A DNA stretch of 64,000 bases from contig NZ_MUKN01000014.1 in the NCBI RefSeq assembly GCF_001995175.1, forward strand, positions 1 through 64,000, in the 5' to 3' direction. Under the pieces are notes generated by a model. That model did no database searches. It saw only the letters and a list, made by a program, of their open reading frames with translations, and was not told where the DNA came from. The position numbers were made by a program, and so were the translations under genes. The stretch comes from Rathayibacter rhapontici. Its GTDB lineage: Bacteria; Actinomycetota; Actinomycetes; Actinomycetales; Microbacteriaceae. Of this stretch, positions 2,360 to 63,505 are shown in pieces; positions within the stretch are counted from its first letter, which is position 1; each line of letters begins with the position of its first letter.

Positions 2360-3292
2360 TCACGACGAGGGATGCCAGCCGCCCGCGACGCGCGCTCGCC
2401 GGACTCGGTGGGCGCAGCCGACCGGATCCGCGTCGAAGGACGCCGAGGCGATGCGCACCACCGTCCAGCCGGCTGCTGCGAGCCTCTCGTAGCGGATCAG
2501 ATCGCGATCCCACTGCTCGCGTTCGGTGCGGTGGTGGTCGCCCTCGTACTCCACGACGACGCGCCACCTCCGGTAGAGCAGATCGACCCGGCCGATCTTC
2601 CCGAGTGCGTCGAACAGCTCGACCTGCAGTTCGGGCTCGGGGAGTCCCGCTGTCACGAGGACGAGGCGGAGCCGGGTCTCGCGCCGCGACTCCGCTCCCT
2701 CGCGGACGAGGGCGATCGCGCGACGAACGGCGCGCGATCCACGGCCCTCGAGGCGCTCGACGCGGCGCTGCAGCTCGTGCAGGGGGACCCACGGTCGGGG
2801 ATCGTCCGTCAGTGGCTTCGCTGGGGAGAGGACGAGCGCATCCCCGACCGCGACCATGTCCTCCAGCCGGAGCACGTCGCCGAGCTGGCAGAAGACGCTC
2901 GCGCCGTCGGCGAGGAGCAGTCCGCCCCGCCGCACGCCGGTCAGCTCGGGGTCCGCGAGCGAGCTGCCCACGAGCCCGCGCCCTCGCGGAGCGCGCGCCG
3001 GATGCCGGACCGCGACGTGCAGCGGTTCGTCCGGAGGCTCGCCCGGAAGGTCCAGCGGCCAGAGCCGAGCCGCAGTCAGCCCGCAGAACACCGAGCGCCG
3101 CATGATCGTCGCGTAGGCCGTGGCGCGCTCGAGGACGCTCGTCACCTCTCCGGCCGGCGCCCGCACTCCGCGGAAGGGGATCACCAGATCGGACGCGCGG
3201 AGGCGGTCCTCCGTCACTCCGGCGGACCGCGCCTCCTCCACGGAGAAGGCGCGTCCGCGCAGTCCGAGAGGAAGGGGTGCGGGTCGGGGCAT
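2360..3292 (-). CDS. DUF559 / AbiEi-antitoxin-like domain protein
   Basis: A 310-residue protein. The N-terminal part (GRAFSVEEARSAGVTEDRL, then PFRGVRAP) resembles the AbiEi-type winged-helix region common in actinobacterial proteins of this kind. The C-terminal part carries the DUF559/Vsr-like endonuclease fold signature VDLLYRRWRVVVEYEGDHH, then RDLIRYERLAAAGWTVVRI, with acidic residues placed as in restriction-like nucleases. No partner toxin is adjacent, so a toxin-antitoxin role cannot be claimed. The ATG at 3292 was chosen because similarity starts just after it; the open frame continues upstream without similarity. The biological role is unknown. Confidence 0.75.
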   Translation of the reverse strand: MPRPAPLPLGLRGRAFSVEEARSAGVTEDRLRASDLVIPFRGVRAPAGEVTSVLERATAYATIMRRSVFCGLTAARLWPLDLPGEPPDEPLHVAVRHPARAPRGRGLVGSSLADPELTGVRRGGLLLADGASVFCQLGDVLRLEDMVAVGDALVLSPAKPLTDDPRPWVPLHELQRRVERLEGRGSRAVRRAIALVREGAESRRETRLRLVLVTAGLPEPELQVELFDALGKIGRVDLLYRRWRVVVEYEGDHHRTEREQWDRDLIRYERLAAAGWTVVRIASASFDADPVGCAHRVRRARVAGGWHPSS

Positions 3293-35383: not shown

Positions 35384-35872
35384 CGATGTGCAGGGGATCC
35401 GGGCCGGCAAACGGATTCCTCCGCCTGCTGCCGTCGCGCCGAGCGCACATCCCCTGCAGACCGCACATTCCCCTGCAGACCGTGCGGAGGCCCGCAGACC
35501 GTGCAATCCCTTCGGGCCTGCCGGAATGAGCCGCGAGACGGGAGGGACGGTGCACGATCTGCAGGGGATCCGGGCCGGCAAGCGGATTCCTCCGCTTGAG
35601 ACCGCCGCGCGGGGCGCAGATCTCCTGCAGATCGGACACTGCCCTGCAGATCGGACAACCCCTCCCTCCGGGCCCGCTGGAGCAAGGCGCGAGACCGGAG
35701 AGGAAGGGTGCACGATTCGCAGGGGATCCGGGCCGGCAAGCGGATTCCTCCGCTTGACGCCCTAGCGCCGGGCGCACATCCCCTGCAGATCGAACACTGC
35801 CCTGCGAATCGCACAGTCCCCTGCAGATCGTGCGCGGGCCTGCAGATCGTGCGGAGGCCTGCAGATCGTACG
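35384..35872. repeat. Modular repeat locus 1: three ~80-bp cores with 19-bp-period CTGCAGATCG satellites
   Basis: Three modules. Each opens with CGATNTGCAGGGGATCCGGG (35384, 35555, 35713; the first bases vary) and ends in an inverted copy CCCCTGCAGATCG starting exactly 70 bp later (35454, 35625, 35783). After each core the terminal motif recurs at an exact 19-bp period: 35454/35473/35492, 35625/35644, and 35783/35802/35821/35840/35859. Each core holds a hairpin, in two copies perfect as CAAGCGGA-TTCC-TCCGCTTG. The modules repeat every 171 and 158 bp. Open frames across it are translations of the repeat, not genes. It fills the gap upstream of the serine hydrolase gene. Confidence 0.9.
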
Positions 35873-60722: not shown

Positions 60723-60924
60723 GAGCGCTCCCGGTGTCGGATCGCGCCGATCACGTCCCCGCATGGACTGATAGTCGAATCAATTCGACCGAGGGGGAGT
60801 GCAGGGGCGTCCTCGGCGGTTAGCGTGAGGAGCGGTGCACGGATCCGAGGGTCCGGCGCCGCTCCTCGCGGCCGTTCGAGCCGCTCCCTATCCGCTCCCC
60901 GCGCTCCTGCGCAGGAAGGCCTCC

Positions 60925-62187
60925 GTGACCACCGTCGCCTCGACGCCCACCGGCTCCGTCCCCGTCCACCGCCACCCCGGCGACGCCCTCACCGCGCGCC
61001 AGCGGCTCGTCTACATCATCGTTCTGGGAGCGCTCACCGCGCTCGGCCCGTTCACGATCGACCTCTACCTCCCCGCGTTCCCGGTGCTGCAGAGCGAGCT
61101 GAACGTGTCCGAGGCGGCCGTGCAGCTGACCCTCACCGGCACGACGCTCGGCTTCGCCCTCGGTCAGCTGATCGTGGGGCCGTGGAGCGACGCCGTCGGG
61201 CGGCGCCTGCCCCTGATCCTGGCCACGGCCGTCCACGTGCTCACCTGCATCGGCGCCGCCTTCGCGCCCGACATCCTCTGGCTCGGCGTGTTCCGCGTGC
61301 TGATGGGCGCGGGCGCCGCGGCGGGCGGAGTCGTCGCCATGGCGATGGTCCGCGACCTCTTCGGCGGTCGTCCGCTCGTCAAGATGCTCTCCCGCCTCGC
61401 CCTGGTCTCGGGCCTCGCACCCGTCCTCGCCCCGGTGATCGGCTCGCAGCTCCTGCTCGTCATGGACTGGCGCGGCGTCTTCGTCTTCCTCGCCGCCTAC
61501 GGCCTCGTCGTGATGATCGCCGTGGCGCTCCTCATCGTCGAGACCCGCCCGCGCAGCGCGCGCGACGACCGCGACCGCCGCTCCCTCGCGCAGCGCTACG
61601 GCTCGGTGCTCGGCGACCGCCAGTTCGTCGGCGTCGCGGTCATCGGAGGCATGACCTTCGCCGGCCTCTTCACCTACCTCTCCAGCTCCTCGTTCCTCTT
61701 CCAGGGGCTCTACGGCTTCGACGCGCAGCAGTACGGGCTGCTCTTCGCGGTCAACTCGCTCGGAGTCGTCTTCGGCGTGCAGGCGTCCTCGCGCCTCAGC
61801 CGCCGGGTCGGCCCGCAGTGGATCCTCGCGATCACCACCGTGTCGCTGTTCACCACGGCGGGCCTCATCGCGTTGTTCGACGTCCTCGGCTTCGGGCTCT
61901 GGGGCACGCTCGTGCCGCTGTGGCTGTTCATCGCCTCCTGCGGCTTCAGCTTCCCGTGCGTGCAGGTGCTGGGCCTCGTGAACCACGGCAGGGAGGCGGG
62001 CACCGCCGCATCGCTGCTGGGTGCGGTGAACTTCGGAGTCGCGGGCCTGCTCTCGCCGATCTCCGGCGTCTTCGGCGCCTCCTCGGCCGTGCCGATGGCC
62101 CTCGTGATGATGGCGACCGCGTCCGTCTCGATCGTGGCGCTCTGGCTGATCGTCCGTCCGCGCACCGTCGCGGCCCTGCAGGACTGA
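60925..62187 (+). CDS. Bcr/CflA-family MFS drug-efflux transporter
   Basis: A 420-residue twelve-helix exporter. LGALTALGPFTIDLYLPAFP is the Bcr/CflA first helix; GQLIVGPWSDAVGRRLPL is the MFS motif A; WRGVFVFLAAYGLVVMI and GTAASLLGAVNFGVAGLLSP match later helices. GTG 60925 was chosen for its GGAAGG site 6 nt upstream. An in-frame GTG at 60835, 8 nt after a TAGCGT box, could be a leaderless alternative with 30 extra residues. Substrate unknown. Confidence 0.88.
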   Translation: MTTVASTPTGSVPVHRHPGDALTARQRLVYIIVLGALTALGPFTIDLYLPAFPVLQSELNVSEAAVQLTLTGTTLGFALGQLIVGPWSDAVGRRLPLILATAVHVLTCIGAAFAPDILWLGVFRVLMGAGAAAGGVVAMAMVRDLFGGRPLVKMLSRLALVSGLAPVLAPVIGSQLLLVMDWRGVFVFLAAYGLVVMIAVALLIVETRPRSARDDRDRRSLAQRYGSVLGDRQFVGVAVIGGMTFAGLFTYLSSSSFLFQGLYGFDAQQYGLLFAVNSLGVVFGVQASSRLSRRVGPQWILAITTVSLFTTAGLIALFDVLGFGLWGTLVPLWLFIASCGFSFPCVQVLGLVNHGREAGTAASLLGAVNFGVAGLLSPISGVFGASSAVPMALVMMATASVSIVALWLIVRPRTVAALQD

Positions 62188-62210: not shown

Positions 62211-62634
62211 CGATCTGCGGGGCCCTGGTGCGATCTGCAGGGCCCCGCACGATCTGCAGGCCCCGCACGATCTGCAGGGCCCCGCACGATCTGCAGGCCC
62301 CGCACGATCTGCAGGCCTCGGTGCGATCTGCAGGTGTTCGCGCGATCCGCAGGTGCGATCTGCAGGGGATCCGGGCGATCCCGACGCCGTTGTCCGGAGG
62401 GAAGCGCGTTCCGGCGCAGAACCCCTGCAGATCGCACCGACCTGCGCGCCGTAGTCCGATCTGCAGGCCTCCGCACGATCTGCAGGCATCTGCACGATTC
62501 GCAGGGGATCCCGCTGTCCGCGAGGAGTCCACGCGGAGGAAAGCGAGTTCCCCTCCGGAACCCCTGCAGATCGCGCAATCCCCTGCAGATCGTGCGGAGG
62601 CCTGCGGATCGCACCAGCCCCTGCAGATCGCGCA
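62211..62634. repeat. Modular repeat locus 2: two inverted ~80-bp cores with 19-bp-period GATCTGCAG satellites
   Basis: Nine left-hand motifs CGATCTGCAGG (62211, 62231, 62250, 62268, 62287, 62305, 62324, 62343, 62356) lead into a core closed by CCCCTGCAGATCG at 62425 and a weak copy at 62442. A second set of left motifs (62457, 62476, 62495) leads into a second core closed by right-hand motifs at 62564, 62583, 62602 and 62621. Steps are 18-20 bp, mostly 19. Last-left to first-right distance is 69 bp in both. The cores align with those of locus 1 only when reverse-complemented. It fills the gap between the exporter and PAP2 genes; no gene is seen inside. Confidence 0.9.
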
Positions 62635-62713: not shown

Positions 62714-63505
62714 ATGGTGAACCGCGAGAACCGCCCCACGACCGAGCCCGCCACCGCGAGCCCCGATGCGGTGCAGCGCGAACGGATGAACGCGGCCTCG
62801 CCGTCCGCGGATCCCGCGGCGACCAAGGTCCTCACGCAGGAGGTCGCCCACCGCGTCTCGCGCCGCTGGCCGCTCATCTCGGCCTCGATCGCCCTGCTGA
62901 TCACCGTCGTGCTCGCGATCATGATCGCCTACCGCCCGACCACCGCCTTCGGCTTCGATGTCGAGTGGATGGACGAGGTCGTCGAGCACCGCTCGAGCGT
63001 CTGGGACATCCCGGCGCTGGTCATGAACACGGTCGGCGCGGGCATCACCGGCACCGCGATCATCCCGCTGGCCATCGTGGCCGTCCTGCTCGTGTTCCGG
63101 AGGCGCTGGGCGGCGCTGTACTACGCCGTCGCCGCCCTCGTCAGCGTCGGCCTGACGCAGCTCGTCAAGGAGCTCGTCGGCCGTGCCCGCCCCGAGGACA
63201 TGCTGGTGACGAGCGACTACGGCTCGTTCCCCTCCGGCCACACCGCCAATGCGGCGACGACCGCGATGGTGCTGGCGTTGATCTTCCCGCTGATCTGGGT
63301 CTGGATCGCCGGATTCCTTTACTCGATCGCCATGATGGCGAGCCGCACCTACCTCGGCGCGCACTGGCTCAGCGACACGATCGGCGGCCTGCTCCTGGGC
63401 ATCGGAGTCGCACTCGTGGTCTGGGCGCCGCTCGCCGGGCGCCTGCGCAGCGAGAGCGAGCTGCCGCATCCGCCGATCTGGGTGAAGCGCTCGGACGTGC
63501 GCTAG
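62714..63505 (+). CDS. PAP2-family membrane phosphatase
   Basis: A 263-residue membrane protein with a ~55-residue cytoplasmic N-terminus and about six helices. The three phosphatase motifs are intact: KELVGRARP, YGSFPSGHTAN and SRTYLGAHWLSD with catalytic His. It may recycle undecaprenyl pyrophosphate or dephosphorylate a lipid phosphate. The ATG was chosen because the upstream frame runs into the repeat array. Its stop overlaps that of the convergent MetF-like gene by a few bases. Confidence 0.85.
   Translation: MVNRENRPTTEPATASPDAVQRERMNAASPSADPAATKVLTQEVAHRVSRRWPLISASIALLITVVLAIMIAYRPTTAFGFDVEWMDEVVEHRSSVWDIPALVMNTVGAGITGTAIIPLAIVAVLLVFRRRWAALYYAVAALVSVGLTQLVKELVGRARPEDMLVTSDYGSFPSGHTANAATTAMVLALIFPLIWVWIAGFLYSIAMMASRTYLGAHWLSDTIGGLLLGIGVALVVWAPLAGRLRSESELPHPPIWVKRSDVR

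Follow-up and report, generated by a model that had tools for sequence, protein, structure and literature searches.

The window analysed here is a stretch of 64,000 nucleotides of Rathayibacter rhapontici DNA. Near its end, an MFS_1 transporter gene (60835..62187, + strand) is followed by a PAP2 gene (62714..63505, + strand; 62714 is the start used in searches and not a mapped start), and the gap between them is occupied by an array at 62211..62634. This array consists of two palindromic modules with extra copies of the same words outside. In module 1, nine GATCTGCAGG-type words lie on the + strand at 62212..62366, with starts at 62212, 62232, 62251, 62269, 62288, 62306, 62325, 62344 and 62357. 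The last of them is the left arm of a palindromic element (62357..62433, +) made of arm GATCTGCAGG, a 57-bp core and arm CCTGCAGATC, which the family model described below matched with E 4.9e-16. The right arm word (62424..62433, − strand) is the sole clear right copy. Module 2 has left words at 62458..62505 (+; starts 62458, 62477 and 62496), of which the last reads GATTCGCAGG, a palindromic element that again has a 57-bp core (62496..62572, +; model match 62501-62572), and right words at 62563..62629 (−; starts 62563, 62582, 62601 and 62620). Start-to-start distances are 20, 19, 18, 19, 18, 19, 19, 13 and 67 bp in module 1 and 19, 19, 67, 19, 19 and 19 bp in module 2, and in both modules the outer words share the orientation of the nearest arm and mostly follow at 19-bp steps. 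Each core contains a conserved one-sided motif on the + strand, at 62394..62412 in core 1 (family consensus GCGGnGGnAAGCGCnTTCC) and at 62533..62551 in core 2 (GCGGAGGAAAGCGAGTTCC). A second locus of the same family on the − strand (35385..35867) has three modules with right-hand satellites and cores facing the opposite way; its elements lie at about 35385-35462, 35556-35633 and 35714-35791. Tandem Repeats Finder (TRF) also detected 18/19-bp arrays in the window.

This anatomy agrees in outline with the initial annotation. All left-hand copies point one way and all right-hand copies the other, as first described. The two cores are indeed equal in length, with the correction that the inner motif starts are 67 bp apart in both modules rather than 69 bp. 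The reported recurrence every 18-20 bp describes most of the steps and fails for one left spacing of 13 bp. The satellite counts of nine and then three on the left and four on the right of module 2 were reproduced; on the right of module 1 one clear word was found instead of two. The array was also correctly distinguished from CRISPR. A CRISPR array would have direct repeats of 20-40 bp in one orientation with unique spacers of like length, and here a 10-bp word with spacers of 3-10 bp (nearly all 8-10 bp) is arranged in two opposed orientations around a core.

GATCTGCAGG within one mismatch was found 37 times in the window compared to 5.4 expected, and the maximum in 100 shuffles was 12. In the whole genome there are 113 exact copies (66 + 47) and none of the reversed control. 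Paired and 19-bp-spaced copies recur, although single words also exist, so the motif is not found at random spacing throughout, the outcome named initially as a refutation. We profiled 100 tandem units, chosen at three or fewer mismatches to the 10-mer, a choice that inflates the conservation of the 10-mer (0.9-1.9 bits per position) and not that of the four bases before it. These four bases are G-Y-R-C, with 1.1 bit for the G and 0.9 bit for the C, and each of the five bases preceding GYRC carries at most 0.35 bit. The view that the bases between motifs vary is thus right for the five near-random bases and wrong for GYRC, with its conserved G and C. The word seems to be read, or used for copying, by something. 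In the 52 genus cores, GCGGnGGnAAGCGCnTTCC is positioned near one end, with constant spacing to the arm, and as it is one-sided the element has a direction; the arms tend to extend as nGATCCG. These 52 cores come from 53 exact pairs, the omitted one (G011:C4:190971) being a near copy of its neighbour. The core also contains a AAGCGCTT-like internal palindrome (e.g. 62394-62412), which we take to resemble LacI-family operators, a likeness that may be a coincidence.

Comparison of the PAP2 gap across species revealed differences in copy number. In the G001 gap the left words number seven, two being degenerate, compared to nine in the window, and the right words of module 2 number two compared to four. 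Since orthologous arrays in other genomes differ in satellite number, an assembly artefact, which had been raised as a possible objection, is unlikely. A comparison of the gap between strains had been proposed to look for copy-number change or clean absence; the former was observed and the latter was not, as the array-free PAP2 site of the sister species G013 aligns poorly and does not provide a clean empty site. Neither an insertion event nor a target duplication was seen in the genomes compared. By eye, the PAP2 gap of G003, G004, G006, G008, G010 and G011 holds a different array built on GGCTCGnnGAA, which where long (G006 and G011) shows 19-bp steps inside 92-bp modules. As the arrays differ between species, a single gap can host different repeat families. 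The GGCTCGnnGAA arrays are inverted and are found at L130-L133, L135 and L128 (G010, G011, G008, G003, G006 and G004). Further long palindromes, TCGAGTAGCCCGCGCAGCGGGCGTATCGAGA-like and GAGATGCCACTTGTGAGC-like, are present at L129 (G005, downstream of PAP2) and at L130-L132 (G010, G011 and G008) and may represent additional families of this type.

The elements are widespread in the genus. In a search for contigs with GATCTGCAGG-N57/58-CCTGCAGATC, 26 of 31 stretches were from Rathayibacter and the other five were single hits in unrelated genomes or MAGs. The exact pair is present in 10 of 15 genus genomes and, in the family sample, in 4 of 299 genomes, all of them Rathayibacter (one of 85 genera). 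A sequence-only model was built from an alignment of 39 of the 52 profiled cores, all of them from GATCTGCAGG elements. It matched all 15 genus genomes at E 0.01, with 2 to 58 matches each; these counts derive from at most 150 scored candidates per genome, and some elements are counted on both strands. At E 0.001 there are at least 24 distinct elements in G001, at least 29 in G003, at least 11 in G006 and at least 14 in G008. One locus, L207 (G011:C4:187800-194100), has a tandem run of eight elements at intervals of about 113-127 bp, some of its cores facing one way and some the other. At several unlinked loci (G000:C14, G000:C100, G004:C1:1371365 and G008:C1:84615) a PAP2-like gene is located no more than about 1.5 kb from an element, which may be a chance association.

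Clustering of the proteins encoded near elements led to one locus, at which a gene of ~1 kb is bracketed by two elements in several species. In the source genome, this gene is on another contig (G000:C15:46831-47682). Its neighbours are Thy1 and DHDPS genes, named thyX and dapA here. The protein combines an AbiEi_4 domain (PF13338) with a DUF559/Vsr-type nuclease domain (PF04480; PF18741 is below the cut-off), and PF13338 is above the cut-off in four proteins. Other candidates for a 'mother' gene were considered and rejected. Only 5 of 128 near-element protein clusters have more than one member per genome, and the largest of these, the family of the window's GH42 beta-galactosidase with seven loci, is not bracketed on both sides. 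GH42-type beta-galactosidase genes occur near elements at L046, L162, L170, L171, L248, L249 and L253, apparently three different sites. The window itself has another nuclease-like gene (2360-3229), encoding a DUF559/MTES_1575-type nuclease with PF04480 above and PF18741 below the cut-off and no AbiEi domain; as inverted repeats do not bracket it, it was not taken as the partner. A 73-bp unit is repeated 3.2 times at 2078-2307, just downstream of this gene. The initial annotation had suggested looking for a RAYT/IS200-type gene elsewhere in the genome. The Y1 transposase domain PF01797 was detected in 0 of 15 genus genomes and in 5 of 14 control genomes, and the apparent partner is instead the AbiEi_4 plus Vsr/DUF559 gene.

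Homologues of the partner protein give 54 matches in the genus, some of which are pieces of one gene, and are present in 14 of its 15 genomes. They also occur in 80 of 120 Microbacteriaceae genomes and, class-wide, in 80 of 148 genomes (53 of 82 genera). G012 and G009 have nine and seven AbiEi-Vsr homologues, respectively, which may represent co-resident repeat systems with different words. Words like GGCTCGnnGAA adjoin another AbiEi-Vsr homologue in G006 and G014 (L297 and L301). A homologue adjoins dapA in 17 genomes from several genera, in inverted orientation in G110. A single query protein matched 0 of 50,697 phage records and 2 of 72,556 plasmid records, both of the latter annotated as AbiE-type, and the partner gene therefore looks chromosomal. 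Close homologues are absent from G004, G005, G010 and G013, which have distant ones only, and from G008, which has none; the model nevertheless had 40, 19, 25, 9 and 25 matches in G004, G005, G008, G010 and G013, respectively. In these element-rich genomes the gene was either lost, or missed by the assembly, or is not needed.

An alignment of 25 homologues shows no variation at E214, D240 and D262 and hardly any at E250, D252 and H257. By sequence, the candidate active site thus has the catalytic residues of the EDxHD type in a Vsr-like domain. Among solved chains, the profile matched 3hrl, an endonuclease-like protein (6e-9), and 3r3p, a mobile intron protein (1.3e-4), which we take to be I-Bth0305I. 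This EDxHD homing enzyme is described as a dimer acting on a target of nearly 60 bp (PMC3943268), a length similar to the spacing of the inverted words.

We then compared the sequences on either side of the partner gene. GATCTGCAGG-type elements lie on both sides of the thyX-dapA gene in G000, G001, G002, G006, G007 and G011, some with mismatches. The flanking word at the G003 gene is mostly GGTTTGCAGG. The G009 and G012 proteins share 43 and 41% identity with the query, respectively, and their genes are flanked by a word of the GGAAATGCAGG type. Homologues elsewhere in genus genomes have other words, AACCGAGG at L292 and L304 and AAGGCTGG at L299. No pairs of AACCGAGG, the word of another homologue in the source genome, were found in the window. 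A flank test was defined as inverted repeats within 450 bp upstream and within 450 bp downstream that share at least eight arm bases. It was passed at 28 of 59 loci, 9 of 30 in Rathayibacter and 19 of 29 in other Microbacteriaceae genera, compared to 1 of 290 shuffles and 3 of 130 control genes. The control genes were from four Rathayibacter genomes, and other taxa were compared with shuffles. Of 261 genes near elements, one passed, and this was the partner itself (L206). Outside the family, 10 of 25 loci passed, in seven families, compared to 1 of 125 shuffles; both sets, the 59 and the 25 loci, were taken as the best-matching ones in each genome rather than at random. Four further family loci all failed (0/4; shuffles 0/20). 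The failures comprise 31 of the 59 loci, including L288 with 8 bp of upstream DNA, and 15 of the 25 outside the family. L275, L280 and L281 failed through mismatches alone, so the test undercounts; at other failing loci, however, the flanks look bare, and bracketing is therefore not universal.

Among 29 partner loci with arm spacing listed, 15 have equal gaps on both sides (e.g. 57/57, 58/58, 59/59, 51/51 and 38/38, figures that vary with how much of the arm is called word), three have unequal gaps (L305, L307 and L313), and 11 have an exact pair on one side or none. Extra words 19 bp further out are present at L276, L283, L316 and L319, the last two being in other genera. At the dapA-adjacent bracketed loci (L305, L306, L307, L309 and L313) the words differ, as expected of a long-kept enzyme with drifting specificity; the dapA-adjacent loci L324, L331/L339 and L341 failed the flank test. 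The link between gene and repeat is well supported.

The word at the gene was also compared with the dispersed words. AAATGCAGG was read at the gene beforehand in G009, G012, G023, G061, G089 and G120, and inverted AAATGCAGG pairs were then counted in each genome, giving 9, 13, 7, 20, 5 and 13, respectively. The counts for G009, G061, G089 and G120 each include the two pairs that flank the gene itself. A single pair, in G088, was found among 14 other genomes, the remaining 13 having none (Fisher p 2e-4), and the reversed pattern gave 0 pairs. All 68 pairs had gaps of 57-60 bp, with 45-70 bp allowed. A similar match was observed within the genus. At the G003 gene, 9 of 10 tandem units have T as the fourth base of the word, as do 11 of 15 dispersed units of that genome, compared to 19 of 287 dispersed units of eight other Rathayibacter genomes; as the loci were picked with a model having C at this position, selection works against this result. 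Near-identical elements lie 1.7 kb apart at G061:C1:2445160 and 2446828, a spacing that would be expected if the partner gene or a remnant of it lies between them. Since the word and its presumed binder change together, the proposal of a protein-binding array, one of those made initially, is likely to be right as far as binding goes.

The match between word and gene bears on whether the elements could be MITE-like, that is, miniature elements with iterated end sites that are moved by an unseen DDE or other transposase, with the nuclease gene as a passenger or landmark. Inverted, iterated end words around a fixed core are reminiscent of multi-site transposon ends such as those of Tn7-like elements. 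The word at the nuclease gene, however, predicts the dispersed word both in other genera and within the genus, and neighbour clustering, in its larger clusters, placed no transposase beside the elements. We therefore regard this explanation as very unlikely.

Relatedness among cores was then assessed. In G012, inner cores at distinct sites had a median identity of 72% and a maximum of 89%, compared to 51 and 63% for shuffled cores. Cores at different sites in five GATCTGCAGG Rathayibacter genomes had medians of 55-66% compared to 48-55% when shuffled. For the G012 cores, the sequences are best explained by copying by descent. At sites common to several species, the cores appeared by eye to be related in near species and were hardly alignable in distant ones. 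Elements lie between a histidine kinase and an oxidoreductase gene in seven genomes, and six genomes have them between genes for an M23 peptidase and an alpha-amylase. With several sites common to multiple species, most copies may be old.

To place the elements relative to genes, 145 elements were scored in 117 stretches (109 with elements and 8 without). Predicted ORFs are overlapped by 31 of the 145, and the other 114 are outside them. By gap type, these 114 sites comprise 66 same-strand, 37 convergent and 11 divergent gaps; 107 control gaps of at least 100 bp from 14 other stretches comprise 52, 27 and 28, respectively. One explanation for such intergenic palindromes is that they are transcription terminators or structured RNAs, the latter having been among the initial proposals. 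In its favour, 51 of the 145 elements lie between convergent genes, and three window elements fold better as single-stranded DNA than shuffles do (z -3.9, -2.5 and -4.8). Convergent gaps are, however, not clearly enriched (37/114 vs 27/107, p 0.30). Rfam at the gathering score gave 0 matches in the 64-kb window, and no compensatory change was detected inside the 39 aligned cores, where the RNAalifold consensus helix consists of the fixed arms only; these arms were picked as exact and are hence unable to covary. The explanation also leaves the bracketing of one gene family and the inverted satellites unaccounted for. We give hardly any credence to terminators or structured RNAs as the source of the array.

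A stronger competitor is that the elements are sites of a global regulator or chromosome organiser. According to this explanation, AbiEi-Vsr or another protein binds the words, selection keeps them, bracketing reflects autoregulation and no copying occurs. AbiEi antitoxins are described as binding inverted repeats at their own promoter and thereby repressing it (PMC3985639), the kinase/oxidoreductase and M23 peptidase/alpha-amylase gaps have kept their elements across species, and the words are conserved whereas the cores are variable. Against it, elements avoid the promoter-bearing divergent gaps (11/114 vs 28/107, p 0.0014), and the neighbouring genes tested do not form a regulon: eight element-adjacent proteins at five loci were mostly unrelated in function, one of them being the partner nuclease and two the alpha-amylases of one site. 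Also against it are the conserved nuclease residues, the PAP2 site that is without an array in a sister species and has a different array in others, and the copy families formed by the G012 cores. On balance, binding and selection without copying seem rather unlikely, and we favour the reading in which the nuclease copies or maintains the elements.

The closest known arrangement is that of REPINs, which are described as inverted REP words at a set distance that occur extragenically in many copies and in tandem arrays, with a matching chromosomal enzyme gene alongside (PMC3116915). The array family is likewise made of dispersed, extragenic inverted word pairs, and its repeats bracket a cognate enzyme gene (28/59 and 10/25 loci), although the enzyme is a different one. 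In contrast to REPINs and RAYTs, no Y1 (HUH) transposase is found in the 15 genus genomes, where the partner is an AbiEi-headed Vsr/DUF559 nuclease, and 19-bp satellites lie outside a core of 57-60 bp. By form alone the family is a REPIN variant, and it is the unrelated enzyme together with the lack of a RAYT that sets it apart. Palindromic repeats without a dedicated transposase are described as CGTC-tagged REPs (PMC3733652). They differ in their tag, and the available part of that description has no Actinobacteria, Microbacteriaceae or partner nuclease. The nuclease domain is related by profile to that of the EDxHD/Vsr homing enzyme I-Bth0305I (3r3p, E 1.3e-4); unlike the latter, the partner is located beside thyX/dapA rather than in an intron or target gene, and has an AbiEi head and dispersed palindromes. 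Among the best matches in a mainly open-access literature, which is not proof of absence, there was no report of this pairing of nuclease gene and palindromes.

The AbiEi_4 domain raises the question of whether the gene belongs to an AbiE type IV toxin-antitoxin system or serves in defence. The resemblance to AbiE lies in the N-terminal domain, and the two plasmid homologues are so annotated. In contrast to AbiE, the C-terminus of the partner is a nuclease and not part of an antitoxin, and at the thyX-dapA locus the gene is flanked by Thy1 and DHDPS genes, with no AbiEii nucleotidyltransferase toxin beside it. The AbiE toxin-antitoxin label therefore fits only the N-terminal domain. In a genome defence or marking role, the nuclease would cut foreign DNA and the palindromes would be protected sites, decoys or storage sites. 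Such a role would be in keeping with the annotation of the AbiEi domain as abortive infection and with a nuclease domain group that is described as named from defence-type fusions (PMC3710099). However, there is no defence cluster around the gene, which lies between thyX and dapA without a toxin partner, and the AbiEi matches from PADLOC were all weak (best 3.5e-7), with no match to the other nuclease gene of the window. Defence or marking is accordingly a reading that we hold to be highly improbable.

Collectively, we consider it probable that the array represents the cis component of a bipartite, REPIN-like system in which a homing-type nuclease acts in trans to copy and spread the elements. 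The cis component is a palindromic element in which two inverted words, the presumed recognition sites, keep a constant spacing of 57-58 bp in this family around a conserved internal site; extra words often follow outside at 19-bp steps. The trans component would be the chromosomal, element-bracketed gene, whose product joins a winged helix of the AbiEi_4 type to an EDxHD-like Vsr/DUF559 nuclease. Two protomers may each bind one of the inverted words and contact one another over the core, where the nuclease may nick or cut. Repair synthesis would then duplicate the element, and 19-bp satellites would be gained or lost through slippage or renewed cutting at the arms. Copies would spread into intergenic DNA and persist there, with word and protein changing together in each lineage. 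That the nuclease copies or maintains the repeats, including the steps of binding, cutting and copying, is what we infer, and copying or upkeep by the nuclease best accounts for the satellites, for the families of similar cores and for the agreement of word with gene. The initial proposal of a mobile palindromic element whose ends amplify is borne out insofar as the elements are dispersed and palindromic, with a fixed core and variable satellites, and their mobility is presumed. More broadly, we lean towards the view that genome-colonising palindromes driven by AbiEi-headed Vsr/EDxHD nucleases occur across the Actinomycetes. They would represent an independent, second solution of the RAYT-REPIN kind, in which each gene lineage has its own word and elements and the nuclease copies or polices them.

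To our knowledge, the Y1 transposases are the one enzyme class with which REP-like palindromes have been associated until now. Should the palindromes described here be written or maintained by the nuclease, they would represent an independent origin of a long-lived repeat population in bacterial genomes, and a function would be suggested for a large family that is labelled as AbiEi antitoxin or DUF559. The birth of satellites, in 19-bp steps beside a fixed core, would likewise become testable in a small system. The many pairs of gene and word provide a ready set for examining how a DNA-reading head shifts its specificity.
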